Origin: a virus
DNA: 23,237 bases
Virus record (IMG/VR): IMGVR_UViG_3300048694_000792
Coordinates: 1-23,237 of that record
Direction: 5' to 3' (one strand)
Below, in pieces: positions 2,852 through 13,309 of this stretch. Both the position numbers and the translations under genes were made by a program. Below the pieces are notes generated by a model. That model worked only from the letters and a program-made list of their open reading frames with translations. It was not told the DNA's origin and did not search any database. The number at the start of each line of letters is the position of its first letter. Position 1 is the first letter of the stretch.

Positions 2852-5800
2852 ATGGCAAAAGGCAAATTCGATCCAAACAGACTGACAGTCGATTTCAAGC
2901 AATTGATGAGACTGAATATACAAGACAGAATTGGATTTTATAGAAGTGGTGGCGCTAGTTACTTTGAAGGGCTCACACCAACACAATTAGCACAGTTATT
3001 CCCTAAACAATACTTGCAGCAATTGCCAGATATTGGTAGAGCAGTTTCTGGTGGTACTAGAGGTGCTGGTGGTGGTTTACCGTCTTTTGGAGGTGGCGGA
3101 GGCGGAGGTGGAGCACCAAGTGGCGGCGGAACTGCCACACCTTCTGCTGTACCAACGGCTACTGTTGCTGGAGGTGCAAAACCTACTACCGGAATTAGCA
3201 CATCACCTAAACAATCTCAAACTGCATCAAAAAATTCTTTCATGGAGTATTTGGAAAAAATACAAGGTCCAAGTGAAGGTAAAATTGTGACAAGTGGATC
3301 CGGATCTCCATTAGCTAAGGCTAGAGCAAAATTGTTTGAGCAAATGAATGATCCTAAAGTAAGAGCTGCTGTTTTTGCTAGAATAGATATAGAAGTGGGT
3401 AGCCAAGGACCTAGAGCGCAATTAGGATTTTTCGAAACGGTTGCAAATAGGGCTCTTGCTCGAAAAATGAGTCTTTACGATACTGTGAGTAATAAAGACG
3501 GCTATTATCCACAAAAAGATAATTCTAGATTCAGAAGCTTATCACAGAGAGCTGATCCTAATTTAGAAAAGAAATATTCGGAAATGTCAAATTCTGTAGC
3601 AGGAGGATCAAATACGGTCAATTATGCCACAGGAAACGGTTCTGGCGGCATAGGCGTAGGTTCAAAGACTAAAAGCATTAATGGTGAAGATTTTGGTATA
3701 GAAAATCAAAAAAGTGATATAAATTGGGCGGCTTCAATGAGGAAGCAAATGTCCGATTTTAGCTCTGAAGAAACAAAAGCAGGAACTTCTGCCCGATATA
3801 CATTTAGTACTGATAAACCAACATCAGTGCAAGAAATGCGTGAATTATTAAAAAAGCACCCAGATAGTATTCATTATGTTGGTGCCAATATGGATAGTGA
3901 AGATTATAAAACTACCGTTGAAAATTACAAGAAATTAACACCAGATGAGCAATCAAAAATCAAATTATCTGGTTATACTTATGGACCAAGATCACACGAC
4001 AAATTCCCAGAAGAACAAAGAGACCTTGCAAATAGAATGAAAGAAATGGGAATGAGTAAAGAAAGATATGAGAAAGGAGGATTTGTAGATTATACTTGGG
4101 ATAAACAAATACTCAGATACGGAAAAAATGCTCCAAATATGATAGAATTTGATAATACGAATTTTGGTAGAGGTGAAGATCATTTATTTGAAGCATATTT
4201 AACCAGACACTATCAAAAAGAACAAGAAACAGGTCTAAAAGTCGATCTCGTAGCAAAAAATTTAGATGAACATCAGTATGCAATATATGACAAATTAGTC
4301 AAAGAAGGAAAAATACGAGAAGGCATGTTCAGGACAGCCGTATCTGAAAGTATTTATAGTGATGTTAATAAAAAAACTGGTAAGCCATCTTGGGTATCGG
4401 CCGCTGAAGAAAGAGGATTACCAGTAGCAGATTTAAGAGGTACACAAAACGAAACTTATTTTGGAACTGTTAGTATGACAGCAGAACCTCAAAGAATTGT
4501 AGGTCCTGTGAAGCCATTACCGCAAGAATTAAGAGATAATCCTATATTTGATCAATACTATCAAAATGCAACGCCAGAAATAAAGAGGTTGATTGATAAC
4601 AATTTAGGTAGAGAAATTGCAGCAGGGAAAAAGTCTATTCCTGATATCATCGATCATATAAAAAGAGATCAAGAGCAAGCGAATCGGCCACAACAACCTC
4701 AAGGCACAGCAACACCAACACAAAATACTGGTGCACCAAGTGGAACACCTTCTGATAAAGTCGGAGCAGCAAAAGGTGTGACTAATTTAGGTGCCGTTGA
4801 TGATTGGCTCATGAGTCGATATACCGGAGGTGGAGTCAGATGGAAAGATGAACAAGCTGCAAAAAAATATAATATGAATATGCAAGATTATGTAGTAAGA
4901 GGTATAGATCCTAAAATAAGAATGGAGATGTATGAGCTTGGTCAAAAATTTGAAAAAGAAACAGGAAAAAAATTTCAAATTAACACAGGATTCAGAGATG
5001 ATTATAGGCAATCATTAATAACAAGTGGCACTTTTGCTCCTGTGGGTGCAAGTCAGCATGGAGGAAGCGGGTCAAGACCCACTAACAAAGAAGCTATTTC
5101 TCAGTTTGGAAAAGCAATGTCGGCATATGGTAATGGTGGAGCATTCGATAGTAGTCCTGACTTCACAAATTGGTTAGAGAAAAATAGGCCTGCCGATTCT
5201 GCAATTGCGCCGACAGGACTAAGAATACCAAAGGATCCTTTTCATATTAGTGATAGTTTTTCCAGAGAAGCCAGTCGATTGGGATATGGTGGAACACCCG
5301 AACAAAGAGAATCGTTGAATAAAAGATTCCAATCTTGGTATAATAATATTGGTGATTCTAATGTGCAGAAAGAAATTTCAGATAGGTTGGCTAAAGAAGG
5401 ATTTAATGTATCTAATCAAGGAACATTAGTTCCTCCTACTTCTGTATCGCCACCACCGGTACCGGTATCACAAAGAGGCATAACTTCAGGAATGCCACCA
5501 CAACAACAGGTTTCACCCGCCGAAGTTAAGACAGAAAATATGCCTGGTTTAACTCCTGCACCAGCACCAACGGCAGTTCCTGCCCAAGAATCTACACCAG
5601 CAGAACCACCAAAAAATGAATACGGTGGTGAATATCAAGCACAGTCAGAAGATTTAGCTGTTGTTAATGCTAGAACAGGTCAACCTCAGTTTACATTCAA
5701 TCGTGATGAACAGTTGTCACTACAAGATGGTAGACTTAAGGTTACACCAGAACAAAGAACAAATCCTGATAATCTACAGCCAACCAACCAAGTCGCACCA

Positions 5801-6058
5801 CAACAACAGCAACAACCATCATCATATGAAAATGCTGCTGGTATGTTTAATGGCATATCTCCTCAGCCACACGCACCTATAGCACCACAAGCTCATAATA
5901 ATTTTGCTAATAGATTAGAACCAGCTTCAATGCCGCAGAATGATGGTATAACAAGAGCTATGGCACAATCAATTGGATTTCATGAGCCTGTTAGTTCAAA
6001 TTACGGATATGGCACAGCAGCAAATATCCGTAATGGATATAATACAATCATATCATAA
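2852..6058 (+). CDS. Large multidomain virion protein with wall-hydrolase-like modules
   Basis: 1068 aa. A conserved N-terminus (about 1-65) is followed by a Gly-rich linker (67-110). Residues 150-235 contain IDIEVGSQGPRAQLGFFETV and ANRALARKMSLYD, resembling SleB-type or lytic-transglycosylase hydrolases. Residues 318-545 (HYVGANMDSEDY, NMIEFDNTNFG, KVDLVAKN) recall a GH114-type TIM barrel. Residues 690-800 resemble a VanY/M15 D,D-peptidase: FQINTGFRDDYRQSL, ASQHGG and DPFHIS, though the Asp of the SxHxxGxAxD zinc motif is not in place. Pro/Gln-rich linkers (610-635, 860-1010) join the parts. Its place after gp26/gp51 suggests a baseplate hub or tail-tip protein that opens the cell wall. All enzyme assignments are tentative motif readings; there is no obvious tape-measure coiled coil. 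Confidence 0.7.
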   Translation: MAKGKFDPNRLTVDFKQLMRLNIQDRIGFYRSGGASYFEGLTPTQLAQLFPKQYLQQLPDIGRAVSGGTRGAGGGLPSFGGGGGGGGAPSGGGTATPSAVPTATVAGGAKPTTGISTSPKQSQTASKNSFMEYLEKIQGPSEGKIVTSGSGSPLAKARAKLFEQMNDPKVRAAVFARIDIEVGSQGPRAQLGFFETVANRALARKMSLYDTVSNKDGYYPQKDNSRFRSLSQRADPNLEKKYSEMSNSVAGGSNTVNYATGNGSGGIGVGSKTKSINGEDFGIENQKSDINWAASMRKQMSDFSSEETKAGTSARYTFSTDKPTSVQEMRELLKKHPDSIHYVGANMDSEDYKTTVENYKKLTPDEQSKIKLSGYTYGPRSHDKFPEEQRDLANRMKEMGMSKERYEKGGFVDYTWDKQILRYGKNAPNMIEFDNTNFGRGEDHLFEAYLTRHYQKEQETGLKVDLVAKNLDEHQYAIYDKLVKEGKIREGMFRTAVSESIYSDVNKKTGKPSWVSAAEERGLPVADLRGTQNETYFGTVSMTAEPQRIVGPVKPLPQELRDNPIFDQYYQNATPEIKRLIDNNLGREIAAGKKSIPDIIDHIKRDQEQANRPQQPQGTATPTQNTGAPSGTPSDKVGAAKGVTNLGAVDDWLMSRYTGGGVRWKDEQAAKKYNMNMQDYVVRGIDPKIRMEMYELGQKFEKETGKKFQINTGFRDDYRQSLITSGTFAPVGASQHGGSGSRPTNKEAISQFGKAMSAYGNGGAFDSSPDFTNWLEKNRPADSAIAPTGLRIPKDPFHISDSFSREASRLGYGGTPEQRESLNKRFQSWYNNIGDSNVQKEISDRLAKEGFNVSNQGTLVPPTSVSPPPVPVSQRGITSGMPPQQQVSPAEVKTENMPGLTPAPAPTAVPAQESTPAEPPKNEYGGEYQAQSEDLAVVNARTGQPQFTFNRDEQLSLQDGRLKVTPEQRTNPDNLQPTNQVAPQQQQQPSSYENAAGMFNGISPQPHAPIAPQAHNNFANRLEPASMPQNDGITRAMAQSIGFHEPVSSNYGYGTAANIRNGYNTIIS

Positions 6059-8239: not shown

Positions 8240-8473
8240 CTAAAAAGGAAGTTTTGCTGTATTAGACTTTGGAAGAAAGTTGAGGTCTTCTGCTTCAATC
8301 TTGATCTTAGACTTGAGAGCACCTGTGACCATTTTAGCAATGACCTCTACTTCCAAATCATTGGACTCACAATAATGGACCACAGCATCAATATATGATA
8401 ACGATTTATTCCTGACCAACTTTTCAATTTCATAAGAAAAGTCTATCATACCATCATGTGAGTCGTCGAGCAT
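8240..8473 (-). CDS. 33: gp33-like late-transcription coactivator
   Basis: 77 aa (T4 gp33 is 112 aa). The core LSYIDAVVHYCESNDLEVEV matches T4 'MSYLEATTAFLEENSI'. The ending LNFLPKSNTAKLPF corresponds to the T4 tail 'KTNTLDFLL', the sliding-clamp-binding C-terminus. gp33 bridges host RNA polymerase (beta flap), gp55 and the gp45 clamp at late promoters, which fits the TATAAATA boxes in this window. RBS AGGAAATAACAT precedes the ATG. It lies upstream of gene 59 as in T4, separated here by one inserted gene. Confidence 0.9.
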   Translation of the reverse strand: MLDDSHDGMIDFSYEIEKLVRNKSLSYIDAVVHYCESNDLEVEVIAKMVTGALKSKIKIEAEDLNFLPKSNTAKLPF

Positions 8474-8476
8474 ATG

Positions 8477-8869
8477 TTATTTCCTATATGATTTTAGTTC
8501 CTGATCAAATGAGTCTCGGTCAACAATCAATTGACTGTAAGTGATTATATCAAATTCATTCAGTTTGTCAAGAACATTCTGAATATCAAAATCCTTACAT
8601 GAAAATAGATCAAACTCAATAAGAGCAGGATCAACCTTGTCCCAGGTATGAATAGAAAGATGAGAGAAATCGAGAACAGCAACAGCGGTAAACCCCTCGT
8701 TATCTACCATGTCTGAATAGACTACATGAGGACCACTGATTACATTCATACCAACACGACCAATAACATCACAACACCAACTCGAAAGTTGTTGTTCAGT
8801 TTTAGGAGGATTCTTTACATAAGCACGGATGATAATATGCTTGTGTTGGCGAATTACTTTTTGTTCCAT
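8477..8869 (-). CDS. speD: S-adenosylmethionine decarboxylase (SpeD-like)
   Basis: 130 aa from the ATG at 8869. AdoMetDC makes decarboxylated SAM for spermidine synthesis and self-cleaves to a pyruvoyl enzyme. Key stretch: GMNVISGPHVVYSDM, then LDFSHLSIHTW, in which the Ser before His is the expected cleavage/pyruvoyl residue (usual 'ESH' is 'FSH' here), then FDLFSCKDFD with the catalytic-type Cys. The length is typical of the small bacterial/phage form. The frame stays open upstream to TTG at 8995, but that stretch holds a terminator and the tmRNA 3' region, so I start at 8869. An AUG-UAA pair at 8879-8874 follows GAGAGG. Cyanophages carry related genes. Confidence 0.9.
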   Translation of the reverse strand: MEQKVIRQHKHIIIRAYVKNPPKTEQQLSSWCCDVIGRVGMNVISGPHVVYSDMVDNEGFTAVAVLDFSHLSIHTWDKVDPALIEFDLFSCKDFDIQNVLDKLNEFDIITYSQLIVDRDSFDQELKSYRK

Positions 8870-8898
8870 TTCGTTACATCTATACCTCTCTCTGGAAA

Positions 8899-8935
8899 TA
8901 AAAAAGGTGGTTTTGTTTGATCGAGGATTACCACC
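8899..8935 (-). terminator. Probable terminator of the tmRNA transcript
   Basis: On the minus strand GGTGGT (8935-8930), an 18-nt loop and ACCACC (8911-8906) are followed directly by six T (8905-8900). The stem is only 6 bp, so partial read-through into speD is likely. It lies inside the open frame upstream of speD and argues that this stretch is not coding. Confidence 0.55.
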
Positions 8936-9008
8936 AACCTCTAGTACAATACGGATGTACCCGAATGATTGTTCTGTTACGAGGTCAATCACCAAAACCC
9001 TATGAAAC

Positions 9009-9053
9009 TTAAGCCGCTAGGCGAGTTTCAAATGGAGCATTATCGTTAGCTGC
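9009..9053 (-). other. tmRNA tag reading frame
   Basis: Codons GCA GCT AAC GAT AAT ... CTA GCG GCT TAA encode AANDNAPFETRLAA. The N-terminal AANDN matches the SspB-binding end of known tags (E. coli AANDENYALAA), and the C-terminal LAA is the ClpX recognition end. The middle, APFETR, differs from the tags I know. Confidence 0.92.
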
Positions 9054-9144
9054 CTTTACGTTTTTGGACTGATTGTCAGCCGTTCCTTGCTGGTATCTCC
9101 ATCTATCTCCCATATGCCTGTCGATCCTATTTCGCCCCCATCAG

Positions 9145-9260
9145 CAACATATTACTTCAAACTTTCCTAGCCAAACAGGTCTGGGCTATCGTACTCGTTT
9201 GATTAAGAGTGACCTTTACGATGACTCTAAAAATCATCTTCCTTCTCAAGTAATATGTTG
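9145..9260. repeat. 13-bp perfect inverted repeat flanking the tmRNA intervening segment
   Basis: CAACATATTACTT at 9145-9157 is the exact reverse complement of AAGTAATATGTTG at 9248-9260. In the precursor RNA this stem brings the CCA end of the acceptor piece next to the 5' G of the coding piece, the expected substrate geometry for RNase P and 3' processing. Confidence 0.85.
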
Positions 9261-9328
9261 TTGGTGGAGGCGTCGGGTACTGCCCCCGAGTCCAGTTCAT
9301 TGTTTGACGACTTCAACGATACAATTCT

Positions 9329-9336
9329 TATTTATA
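9329..9336 (-). promoter_or_regulatory. T4-type late promoter box for the tmRNA
   Basis: The minus strand reads TATAAATA exactly, starting right after the stop codon of the phosphatase gene. Transcription would begin around 9323, just before the acceptor piece. No TTGACA-type -35 is seen at the right distance, so late or read-through expression from the promoter at 10074 is more likely than a separate early promoter. Confidence 0.6.
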
Positions 9337-9786
9337 TTAGAAATCTCCTAATTGAACCTGAAGACACCGAATGCCTTCATTACGCCACATCTCGACAACA
9401 CCATTATGATCATCAAATACCATATATGGATCATATCCATCGAGGCGAATGTCCTGTAGAAGTTCTTTCTTTACGATTCTATGATCACGATAATCATCTA
9501 CTGCACGCATATAAAGCTTGTCATAAACACCACGAAGACCCGCAGTCTTATCAAGCCATTCCTTTGTTTGCTTGCGTTCATCATCCGATCTAGCAGTCAC
9601 AATAAGAATAGTGTTGCCAGCTTTCTTAAGAGTTTTGATCAGCCATACAATATCTTCATAAGGAGTATCAAGGTGTGCAACCTTCTTATACTCTTTCCAA
9701 CGCTTAGGCTTTACTGTCAGAAAATGTTCACGGTGATCTGTATTAGCCAAAGTACCGTCAACATCACAAAGAATCACTTTGTTCAT
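9337..9786 (-). CDS. Stand-alone HAD phosphatase, PNK 3'-phosphatase type
   Basis: 149 aa from the ATG at 9786 (GGA 8 nt upstream; a TTG at 9792 is rejected). HAD motif I is VILCDVDGTLA; motif II is LIVTARSD with the Thr; motif IV is MVFDDHNGVVEMW. The ending VVEMWRNEGIRCLQVQLGDF closely follows the T4 polynucleotide kinase end '[20 protein letters not shown]'. T4 Pnkp has an N-terminal kinase; here only the 3'-phosphatase domain exists. The predicted role is removing 3'-phosphate or 2',3'-cyclic phosphate from broken RNA or DNA ends, as in tRNA repair after anticodon nuclease attack. It lies directly upstream of the tmRNA in the same orientation. Confidence 0.88.
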   Translation of the reverse strand: MNKVILCDVDGTLANTDHREHFLTVKPKRWKEYKKVAHLDTPYEDIVWLIKTLKKAGNTILIVTARSDDERKQTKEWLDKTAGLRGVYDKLYMRAVDDYRDHRIVKKELLQDIRLDGYDPYMVFDDHNGVVEMWRNEGIRCLQVQLGDF

Positions 9787-9788
9787 AA

Positions 9789-10013
9789 TCAATTTCCTTT
9801 GAGGTTCAATTCTATTATTGCAGACTTAGATACGCACACAGTATTAATCAAAACACCATTGTTCTTTTCACATTCTTCTTTGACAGCCCATTCAAATTTC
9901 ATAGAAGCTCCAGCTAAAAGAATGAATAGAACGGGAATTATCCATAAAAACTTCGATCTAGCTATAAAGACCTCATACATAAACCAAAGCACAGATATCA
10001 AAAAGAATAACAT
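9789..10013 (-). CDS. Small membrane protein
   Basis: 74 aa. Two hydrophobic segments, at about residues 1-16 (MLFFLISVLWFMYEVF) and 22-37 (FLWIIPVLFILLAGAS), make a likely hairpin in the inner membrane. A soluble C-terminal part contains two cysteines (EECEKNNGVLINTVC) that could form a disulfide if periplasmic. RBS AGGA lies 7-8 nt before the ATG. It has its own sigma70-type promoter at 10074-10046 and sits 2 nt upstream of the phosphatase ATG. I do not recognise a family; an early membrane-acting protein such as a superinfection or lysis modulator is conceivable but not shown. Confidence 0.7.
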   Translation of the reverse strand: MLFFLISVLWFMYEVFIARSKFLWIIPVLFILLAGASMKFEWAVKEECEKNNGVLINTVCVSKSAIIELNLKGN

Positions 10014-10751: not shown

Positions 10752-11306
10752 TCAATCTCGTTTTGGATTACCCAATATGGTTTTAACATGTGGTTTTCCA
10801 CCAATCTCTCTTTCATATGTGGTAGGAGACTTAATGGACACTTTTTTGCTCAATAATTTTTCTGCTTCAGAACTTGGAATAACATCCGCTCCAGTTTTCT
10901 TCCAAATATGACCTAACTTACCTGAAAATTCGCCCCATGCATTTCTGTTCTTTTGTTTTATATCATCAACAATATTTCTGGCTAATCCTTTTTTACCTTC
11001 AGTTGTGCCATCAGTGCCAGCAGCAATTACTTTGCGACCATTTTTATGTTTTTTATATAATGTAGCACTAACAATTTTACCGCCCGATCTGACAAGTTTC
11101 ATATCAGAATGTGAAATATCATGATGTATAGCTTTTGATTCTTCTTCTGATCCTGAACCAAGTTCTCCATAACCTCCAATATCTGCATATGATTTTCTAA
11201 GCATATCATGAACATCTTGTCTATGCTTTTCACGATATGGCTCATGTTTCTCATTAAAACCAGGATTGAGAAATCTTTCAAGTATGAATTGAGAAAAACT
11301 TATCAT
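10752..11306 (-). CDS. CTS-like N-terminus plus GNAT-like domain; putative head-internal protein
   Basis: 184 aa. It starts MISFSQFILERF, matching the T4 capsid-targeting pattern of internal proteins (MKTYQEFIAEA in IPII/IPIII), which the gp21 protease cleaves after Glu. The body has SYADIGGYGELG, GGKIVSATLYKKHKNGRKVI, AAGTDGTTEGKKGLAR, NAWGEFSGKLG and TYEREIGGKPHVK. As I recall, this pattern belongs to a phage GNAT-like family: a 'DGT-EGKKGL' loop in the acyl-CoA-binding position and an 'AW-E-SG' strand. Acetyltransferase activity is inferred, not proven. The ATG overlaps the stop of the upstream ligase-like gene (ATGA), so the pair is coupled. It is the last gene of a late-type cassette. 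Confidence 0.65.
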   Translation of the reverse strand: MISFSQFILERFLNPGFNEKHEPYREKHRQDVHDMLRKSYADIGGYGELGSGSEEESKAIHHDISHSDMKLVRSGGKIVSATLYKKHKNGRKVIAAGTDGTTEGKKGLARNIVDDIKQKNRNAWGEFSGKLGHIWKKTGADVIPSSEAEKLLSKKVSIKSPTTYEREIGGKPHVKTILGNPKRD

Positions 11307-13309
11307 TCTTCATCACCCTTTGAGCCCGATCTTGTTGGAACAAGTCTTAGGGCATCTATTCTTTTTCTGAATCTGATCATAGGATCATTCTTTTCATTCA
11401 GCTTAGTATTTGGTTTATTAGAAGTAAAGAACTTTTTCACATCTTCTAGTTCTTTATCGGAAACATCATCGAGTTGAGATGTTTTACCTTTAGACCATCC
11501 TTTAGTCAAATGAAACTTTTTGGTAGCATCAGAAGCAGAGGATTCGATGATAAATTTTTCAAACAACTCATCTATAGATTCCTTCTGTGTTCTGATAGTA
11601 TCATAATTTCTCTTTACTAACTTTTCATTCATACCAGGATGATATGCTTTGAATCCTTTATAATCACCTGCCCTGGCTAGACCAATGATCTTAGTGGCTG
11701 ATGCGCTTCTCTCCAGTTCATCTTTGCTCATTTGTGTAGGGTGTTTATCAACATCTTCTCTTTTGCCTGTTACTTCATGAACATGCACACCACCTGGGAA
11801 ATGGAATGGAATATTACCTTTCTTATCTGGTTTACCATTATATTTCTCAGCTATTTTCCTATATTCATTAGCTCTGTCAGAACCTGCAACTATATGTAAA
11901 GTATGATGTTGACCATTTAGTCGGCTCAATGAGTCCAATACATTTGTTGTCGATTCTACAGGATGATCAAACATGGCTTCAGCATGTTCTTTCTTCTGTT
12001 CTGGTGTCAAAGGATCAGAAGTTCCTGTTAGATGAATATGGAGTTTGCCTTTGTTCTTTTTAGCTATACCTTTAGCTTGATCAATAGCTTTCTTGTGCCC
12101 TAAAGTAGCATATCTAACTTTACCAACAAAGAGCACTCCTGTAGAACCAGTCTTACTTTCGTTTATTGCTCCCTTAGTTGGAAATCTTGGGTTGTTACCC
12201 AAAGCATGTTGAACATCGGAATGAACCAATTTAGATACCGGTCTCAATCTGCCTTCGTTATCCTTCTTTTGTATAACGATACCTTCAGTCTTTGATTGTT
12301 TACCATCAACACTTGTTTCCAAATCTGGATGTTTTACACCACCTAGAGCATGATCTGTAGCAGCCTGTAGGTGATGCCTGATATCCAATGATCTTTGGAA
12401 ATGTTCTGAATTGTTTTCAGCATCTTTAGCTAGAGATTCAAATTTATCTCGTGCTTTCTTTTGTCCTGCTTCTGATTTAAGTTTCTTAGCAGCCTCTTCA
12501 CCACGACCTCTTAGATAAGAAGCATATCCAGCTACCGATGGTTTTCTATTACCACGAGCAACACGGTTATTATAGATTGTGAAATGTTCCTTATGTTCCG
12601 GTGTCAAATGGTCTGTAGTATGTTTAGCAAGCAATTTCTCTGCCTGCCCCAAATGATGTTCCACAGCTTTCTTGTCTTCGTCAGAATATGGATGTTCTGA
12701 TGGCTTGAAGTCTGTTCTAGGAACAAAAATATTTTTGCTTGATTGTATTGCTTTCTTTTCAGGAGCATGTGCTACACCTTTTGATACCTCAGTATGAATA
12801 GCAATGCCAACTGGAGCAGAACTCTTAGCATGATATGTTAATCGGTTAGGAGTATAAGAAGTTTTACCACCTTTATGTTCACTTGTTCCATCACCTGGAG
12901 TCCAAAGAATATCACCTTGTACATGATGACCTTTACCTACAATTTCATGCCCATGATTTCTAAGATGCTTTAAAGCTTCTGCATATCCTGGATGTTTACC
13001 AAAATGTTGATCTATTTCTTGATCAGAATGGGCAACCACACCTCTAGCTAACCTATGCTTATCTGAAATACCTACTTGACCGTCAGCACCATGAACAATA
13101 TGAACCGATGCACCGCCGTCATGTTTCAATGAAGCAGAAACGGTACTGGGTTTACCTTGTCTAAGATTATGGAACTGACGAATCAGATCAACAGCCGCAT
13201 GAGAATGTTGAGGGGCTTCGTGAGGTAAATCTTTAGTGTGTGTTAGATGCCCTAATAGGTCATCATCTACAGACACAGCTTCATTTAGATATTCTAGGAA
13301 CGATCTCAT
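11303..13309 (-). CDS. Ligase/nucleotidyltransferase-NMNAT-like fusion with CTS-like N-terminus
   Basis: 668 aa. The N-terminus MRSFLEYLNEA resembles T4 capsid-targeting sequences. Residues 55-365 look like a covalent nucleotidyltransferase (ligase) domain: motif I K62-H-D-G, a VQGDIL strand at 130, motif IV TEGIVIQ at 341-347, then a Lys-containing stretch (RPVSKLV) for motif V. Residues 390-575 look like a nucleotidylyltransferase: FVGKVRYATLGHKKAI with T402-x-G-H, AGSDRANEY, and SATKIIGLARAGDY (S537-x-T-K, the ISxTxI-type motif of NMNAT/cytidylyltransferases). The rest is His/Lys-rich, including ELFEKFIIE at 581-589. Both active sites look intact. Substrates are unknown; NAD metabolism, nucleic-acid joining or protein nucleotidylation are options. 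Confidence 0.75.
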   Translation of the reverse strand: MRSFLEYLNEAVSVDDDLLGHLTHTKDLPHEAPQHSHAAVDLIRQFHNLRQGKPSTVSASLKHDGGASVHIVHGADGQVGISDKHRLARGVVAHSDQEIDQHFGKHPGYAEALKHLRNHGHEIVGKGHHVQGDILWTPGDGTSEHKGGKTSYTPNRLTYHAKSSAPVGIAIHTEVSKGVAHAPEKKAIQSSKNIFVPRTDFKPSEHPYSDEDKKAVEHHLGQAEKLLAKHTTDHLTPEHKEHFTIYNNRVARGNRKPSVAGYASYLRGRGEEAAKKLKSEAGQKKARDKFESLAKDAENNSEHFQRSLDIRHHLQAATDHALGGVKHPDLETSVDGKQSKTEGIVIQKKDNEGRLRPVSKLVHSDVQHALGNNPRFPTKGAINESKTGSTGVLFVGKVRYATLGHKKAIDQAKGIAKKNKGKLHIHLTGTSDPLTPEQKKEHAEAMFDHPVESTTNVLDSLSRLNGQHHTLHIVAGSDRANEYRKIAEKYNGKPDKKGNIPFHFPGGVHVHEVTGKREDVDKHPTQMSKDELERSASATKIIGLARAGDYKGFKAYHPGMNEKLVKRNYDTIRTQKESIDELFEKFIIESSASDATKKFHLTKGWSKGKTSQLDDVSDKELEDVKKFFTSNKPNTKLNEKNDPMIRFRKRIDALRLVPTRSGSKGDEE

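Follow-up and report, generated by a model that had tools for sequence, protein, structure and literature searches.

The window, a 23,237-nucleotide stretch of viral DNA (IMG/VR record IMGVR_UViG_3300048694_000792), carries on its minus strand, at positions 9322-9009, a permuted (two-piece) tmRNA gene that is intact and conserved. The features of the locus, listed here in the direction of transcription, are as follows.

9337..9792, minus strand: polynucleotide kinase 3'-phosphatase (HAD) domain protein, the upstream gene (PF25109, 2e-31)
9339-9337, minus strand: stop codon of the upstream gene, abutting TATAAATA
9329..9336, minus strand: T4-type late promoter element TATAAATA (exact match)
9262..9322, minus strand: acceptor piece, 61 nt, with the P2 3' strand (RF04321 and RF01849 alignments; compensatory stem changes)
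9289-9273, minus strand: T arm of the acceptor piece (RF04321 and RF01849 alignments)
9272-9266, minus strand: acceptor 3' strand CGCCTCC (sequence; RF04321 and RF01849 alignments)
9265-9262, minus strand: ACCA end of the acceptor piece (sequence; RF04321 and RF01849 alignments)
9261-9140, minus strand: intervening segment, 122 nt (folds)
8965..9139, minus strand: coding piece, with first letters GGGGGCGAAATAGGATCGAC at 9139 and a predicted 3' limit at 8965 (RF01849; sequence)
9139-9133, minus strand: acceptor 5' strand GGGGGCG (RF01849; sequence)
9009..9053, minus strand: tag frame AANDNAPFETRLAA with stop TAA at 9011-9009 (sequence reading)
8992-8986/8971-8965, minus strand: 3' pseudoknot hairpin GTGATTG/CAATCAT with loop ACCTCGTAACAGAA (sequence)
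8900..8935, minus strand: terminator-like hairpin, GGTGGT (8935-8930), 18-nt loop, ACCACC (8911-8906) and T6 (sequence; fold)
8477..8995, minus strand: S-adenosylmethionine (AdoMet) decarboxylase-like protein, the downstream gene (PF02675, 7.7e-11; phrog_3125)
8240..8473, minus strand: gp33 late-transcription coactivator (phrog_254, 3.5e-24)

The acceptor piece, with its T arm and CCA, is encoded 5' of the coding piece, and the acceptor stem formed between them is paired at 7/7 positions and contains G3-U70. The coding piece contains, in order, the acceptor 5' strand, a D-loop-like GAAATAGGATCGAC, PK1, the tag frame, the tag hairpin and the 3' pseudoknot hairpin, the last of which, with its loop ACCTCGTAACAGAA, is similar to the 3' end of alpha_tmRNA.

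Other T4-like neighbours in the window are gp32, gp59, a PD-(D/E)XK exonuclease and PhoH, together with structural genes for head closure, end protector, tail tube and baseplate hub (gp3/gp4/gp19-like). The phosphatase directly upstream of the tmRNA promoter stands alone, without the kinase half. The AdoMet decarboxylase-like gene begins with a TTG that overlaps the tmRNA 3' domain, and its real start is probably an internal ATG; the nearest isolates by protein are pelagiphages, with about 35% identity, and the placement of this gene just 3' of the tmRNA is common to IMG/VR contigs L005 and L006. Elsewhere in the window, a 1068-residue protein in the tail/baseplate region (2852-6058, plus strand) has no Pfam or PHROGs match, and a 668-residue protein (11303-13309, minus strand) combines DUF6267 with a region similar to a phage cytidyltransferase family. 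No megablast match by DNA to an isolate was found among 50,697 phage records.

In a cmscan search against all of Rfam, the minus strand was found to match RF04321 (tmRNA_permuted) at 107.6 bits (E 1.8e-20; gathering cut-off 47) over the whole model (1-213/213), and RF01849 (alpha_tmRNA) at 87.5 bits (E 8.9e-23; gathering cut-off 50), likewise over its full length (1-355/355), with the latter alignment extending as far as 8963. An earlier note, made from the letters of this DNA, had described a phage-encoded, circularly permuted tmRNA of alphaproteobacterial type on the minus strand of a T4-like phage: an acceptor piece with ACCA, an intervening segment and a coding piece with a D-loop motif and a tag frame, joined by a 7-bp acceptor stem with G3-U70. 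All of these elements were located, the T4-like assignment agrees with the neighbours gp32, gp59, gp33, the phosphatase and the gp3/gp4/gp19-like genes, and the alpha_tmRNA model that the note had proposed as a check gave the match above. The other program proposed there, ARAGORN, reported no tmRNA in the window; since it also missed 7 of 28 further phage loci with a tmRNA, this silence carries little weight against the gene. Surveys based on ARAGORN undercount phage tmRNA. The extent that the note had given, 9001-9328, contains the tmRNA gene but is somewhat too short for the transcription unit, which runs from the promoter at 9336-9329 to the terminator-like hairpin at about 8900. A one-piece tmRNA in the same phages was considered and rejected, RF00023 giving sub-threshold partial matches only.

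Stem pairing was compared across 31 distinct phage tmRNAs, those readable over their full length. Standard pairs filled every one of the 217 cells of the acceptor stem and the 155 cells of the T stem, whereas 5000 partner shuffles reached at most 196 acceptor and 130 T-stem pairs, which excludes chance. Both strands vary at pairs 4-6 of the acceptor stem and pairs 1-3 of the T stem, and acceptor pair 3 is G-U in 31/31. The closest relative of the window, sister contig L005, has the acceptor stem GGGGTGG/CCACTCC and the T stem ACCGG/CCGGT, all paired, and differs from the window by two compensatory pair changes in each stem. L005 encodes the identical 14-residue tag with one synonymous change, and this combination of the same tag with different, still-paired stems indicates selection on the RNA. 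On inspection, a P2 helix between the two pieces looks plausible, with pairing that includes GUAUC/GAUAC; a crude duplex-energy test showed no significant preference for cognate partners, with a mean of -14.2 kcal/mol for cognate pieces vs -13.9 kcal/mol for others and 5394/20000 permutations as low.

The codons at 9053-9009 read GCA GCT AAC GAT AAT GCT CCA TTT GAA ACT CGC CTA GCG GCT TAA. UA before the resume codon is seen in other tmRNAs as a resume determinant, and UA is present at -5/-4 relative to the GCA at 9053-9051; this GCA is therefore most likely the resume codon, giving the predicted tag AANDNAPFETRLAA. Every tag examined, that of the window included, ends in an AA-type (ClpXP-type) C-terminus. 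The tag also bears on the possibility that the RNA is a decoy that binds SmpB or ribosomes and so blocks host trans-translation, for which mycobacteriophage DS6A provides a precedent in the form of an RNA made up of the tRNA-like domain only and proposed to be a trans-translation blocker (PMC4131195; PMC11915505). The DS6A RNA has no tag frame, whereas the window keeps the full coding piece with tag and pseudoknots, and between the window and L005, which form the closest pair, tag evolution is synonymous; a decoy role is accordingly considered very unlikely.

The late element TATAAATA lies 47 nt before the T stem, with a predicted transcription start at about 9323-9322. A standard sigma-70 promoter was sought for the window tmRNA and rejected, the best site having 4 mismatches and no -35 hexamer. 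Across 26 gp32-linked phage tmRNA loci, an exact TATAAATA was found 46-52 nt before the T stem in eight (shuffles: mean 0.3, maximum 1), and a sigma-70 promoter with at most two mismatches in 16 (shuffles: mean 0.95, maximum 4); the latter always has a 17-nt spacer, and its -10 box precedes the T stem by 46-53 nt. The late element overlaps a sigma-70 promoter in 7 of its 8 loci, and in the window it stands by itself. At the site of the window's late promoter, most relatives thus carry either a sigma-70 promoter or a dual one. Because these promoters stand at a near-constant distance before the T stem, the start of the acceptor piece appears to be set by the promoter. Expression of the window tmRNA should be late and gp55/gp33-dependent, which would suggest a late role in the infection and not one confined to early host shut-off. 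For the Methylophilales phage Melnitz (MZ577097, published 2022), early expression was proposed by the authors (PMC9004378). The promoter types yield testable predictions of when each phage needs ribosome rescue. At the other end of the unit, a terminator scan of the window locus found none, the 18-nt hairpin loop being too long for the scan; in L005, the last hairpin continues directly into a T7 tract. Folding also gave an alternative 7-bp stem (8999-8993/8915-8909) that encloses the tmRNA 3' domain.

The RF04321 cut-off was exceeded in 31 of 50 related IMG/VR contigs, a set selected by gp32 in which many contigs lacking a match are short fragments. The order exonuclease, tmRNA, gp33, gp59 and gp32, all on one strand, was found to recur in related contigs and in Melnitz. 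The remark in the earlier note that a permuted form in a T4-like phage is rarely described does not hold, given these contigs, the same placement in Melnitz and the 53 two-piece phage tmRNAs counted in the Melnitz study, which also described its two-piece ssrA (PMC9004378). Among isolates, Caulobacter phage Cr30 is related by its gp32 but lacks a permuted tmRNA, so that at least one T4-like phage of Alphaproteobacteria can do without the gene. Depending on the phage, the best Rfam model among the gp32-related phage tmRNAs is alpha or beta, and on the gp32 tree this type changes 3 times, vs 13.5 in shuffles, indicating inheritance along the phage lineage; the alpha-type exception is Melnitz, which sits on a long branch beside the beta group. 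The 28-nt T-arm/acceptor sequence of the window was found in 21 bacterial contigs, all from Alphaproteobacteria. The host of the window phage is likely alphaproteobacterial, as the earlier note had proposed, although the alpha-type Melnitz infects an OM43 methylotroph.

Permuted tmRNA is common in alphaproteobacterial hosts (131/142 genomes), which makes capture easy, and the locus might accordingly be a functionless, decaying host copy acquired by accident, for example through imprecise excision. Such an origin is contradicted by the perfect stem pairing with compensatory changes, by an intact tag frame common to the diverged sister L005, by a dedicated promoter, by synteny conserved over the gp32 tree with few type changes and by a context free of integrase, and is regarded as extremely improbable. 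In all probability, the locus is a working phage two-piece tmRNA gene of alphaproteobacterial type that is vertically kept just upstream of gp33, processed by the host and used to rescue ribosomes. At the level of sequence, this reading is carried by the anatomy, the covariation, the synteny and the promoter match. SmpB was found in none of 33 phage records searched and in all of ten control bacterial genomes, so that host SmpB would be used; the window being a 23-kb fragment, an SmpB gene might still lie elsewhere in the same genome.

A scheme can be proposed for processing, charging, trans-translation, timing and the benefit to the phage. Transcription from the phage promoter would begin where the acceptor piece begins, giving a primary transcript in which the intervening segment folds into a long hairpin that prolongs the acceptor stem. 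This segment would then be excised by host RNases, with RNase P cutting at G1 of the coding piece and other nucleases at the CCA, and the two mature pieces would remain paired. Host alanyl-tRNA synthetase would charge the molecule via G3-U70, and host SmpB and EF-Tu would bring it to stalled ribosomes, where addition of the tag AANDNAPFETRLAA would free the ribosome for phage translation and mark the fragment for proteolysis. It is reasonable to suppose that the ribosomes rescued are those stalled on host mRNA undergoing decay. Far from being a curiosity, ribosome rescue would then be a permanent function of a large branch of environmental T4-like phages, conserved in its genomic position. Alternatively, the same molecule might benefit the phage mainly as a substitute for host tmRNA that a host defence or toxin has destroyed, and not by adding rescue capacity. 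Host tRNAs cut by defence nucleases are often replaced by phages, and an RNA-end repair gene, the polynucleotide kinase phosphatase, adjoins the tmRNA; no defence target site was identified, however, and replacement as the main benefit is judged rather unlikely.

The intervening segment of the window was predicted by folding to close with a 13-bp helix, CAACATATTACTT/AAGTAATATGTTG, and to end in a TGAT facing the ACCA; it would be absent from the mature tmRNA. This arrangement is a shared phage signature: TGAT lies immediately 5' of the coding piece and faces ACCA as A-U, C.A, C-G and A-U, followed by one unpaired position on each side and then a helix with the consensus AARYACA/TGTRYTT. The TGAT end was found in 84 of 113 unique viral but only 2 of 73 alphaproteobacterial permuted tmRNAs, counts in which related sequences enter more than once, the IMG/VR set was chosen by a coding-piece pattern and may contain some host DNA, and the bacterial sample is biased to high-scoring and long matches. 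It occurs in unrelated phages (T4-like phages, RcSimone-Hastad, RpoS-V10, MAL1, MD18 and Mesorhizobium phage Cp1R7A-A1) and was absent from the sole betaproteobacterial control; a pattern scan of 385 alphaproteobacterial genomes detected it in 8. None of the tmRNAs compared had a segment ending in UGGU, which would complement ACCA perfectly. Median segment length is 88 nt in viral vs 36 nt in alphaproteobacterial tmRNAs. A hammerhead-like CUGAUG...GAAA at the junction was rejected on inspection: stem II is missing, and in relatives the motif reads UUGAUG or AUGAUG.

In the alphaproteobacterial genomes L368, L369 and L378-L385, the tmRNA intervening segment ends in TGAT as in phages, accompanied in L368, L369 and L380 by a phage-like helix; these genomes could have donated the phage form or received it. 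On the beta side, the phage tmRNAs of L043, L044 and L045 have a 172-nt intervening segment and the tag ANESRFLMAA, and L236 passes the general permuted model alone, the Rfam beta model remaining below its cut-off. Tentatively, and with somewhat less than even confidence, phage permuted tmRNAs may be viewed as a phage-adapted lineage of their own that spans unrelated phages and both alpha and beta types and is marked by an ACCA:UGAU, RYACA/UGURY maturation hairpin. If so, the maturation and timing of tmRNA in phages would follow a route unlike that of most hosts, and the gene would have passed among phages rather than being recaptured from each host. The shared segment signature offers a handle on maturation of the two-piece tmRNA precursor and on possible gene trade between phages.

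How does this locus compare with known systems? Melnitz is similar in having a permuted alpha-type tmRNA with G3-U70 and an intervening segment ending in TGAT, located between a PD-(D/E)XK exonuclease gene and gp33-gp59. Its sigma-70/late dual promoter stands at the same distance as the window's promoter but includes a -35 box, which the window lacks, and its tag, ANDNYVPVDYALAA, is different; a glutamine riboswitch was also reported with the Melnitz tmRNA (PMC9004378). The Rhodobacterales siphophages DSS3_MAL1, vB_RpoS-V10, MD18, RcXuper and RcSimone-Hastad likewise have permuted tmRNAs with a TGAT-type segment; unlike the window phage, they are not T4-like, carry the gene at another genomic place and have no T4 late promoter, and some have the acceptor GGGGCCG. 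Compared with the sampled alphaproteobacterial tmRNAs, in which segments are short and TGAT is rare, the window differs in the length of its segment, its long closing helix and its TGAT. Mycobacteriophage and Bacillus phage G also encode ssrA, but in one piece (PMC4131195); tmRNA has further been reported in phages of B. elkanii and others (PMC12656738), and a 2025 database holds 79 phage tmRNAs (PMC11915505). The literature searched, which did not extend to some key older papers, makes no mention of the late promoter or the UGAU signature. Overall, two-piece tmRNA has already been described in a few phages, and the exact T4 late promoter, the UGAU segment ends and a tmRNA type that follows phage phylogeny go a little further than what was found in print.
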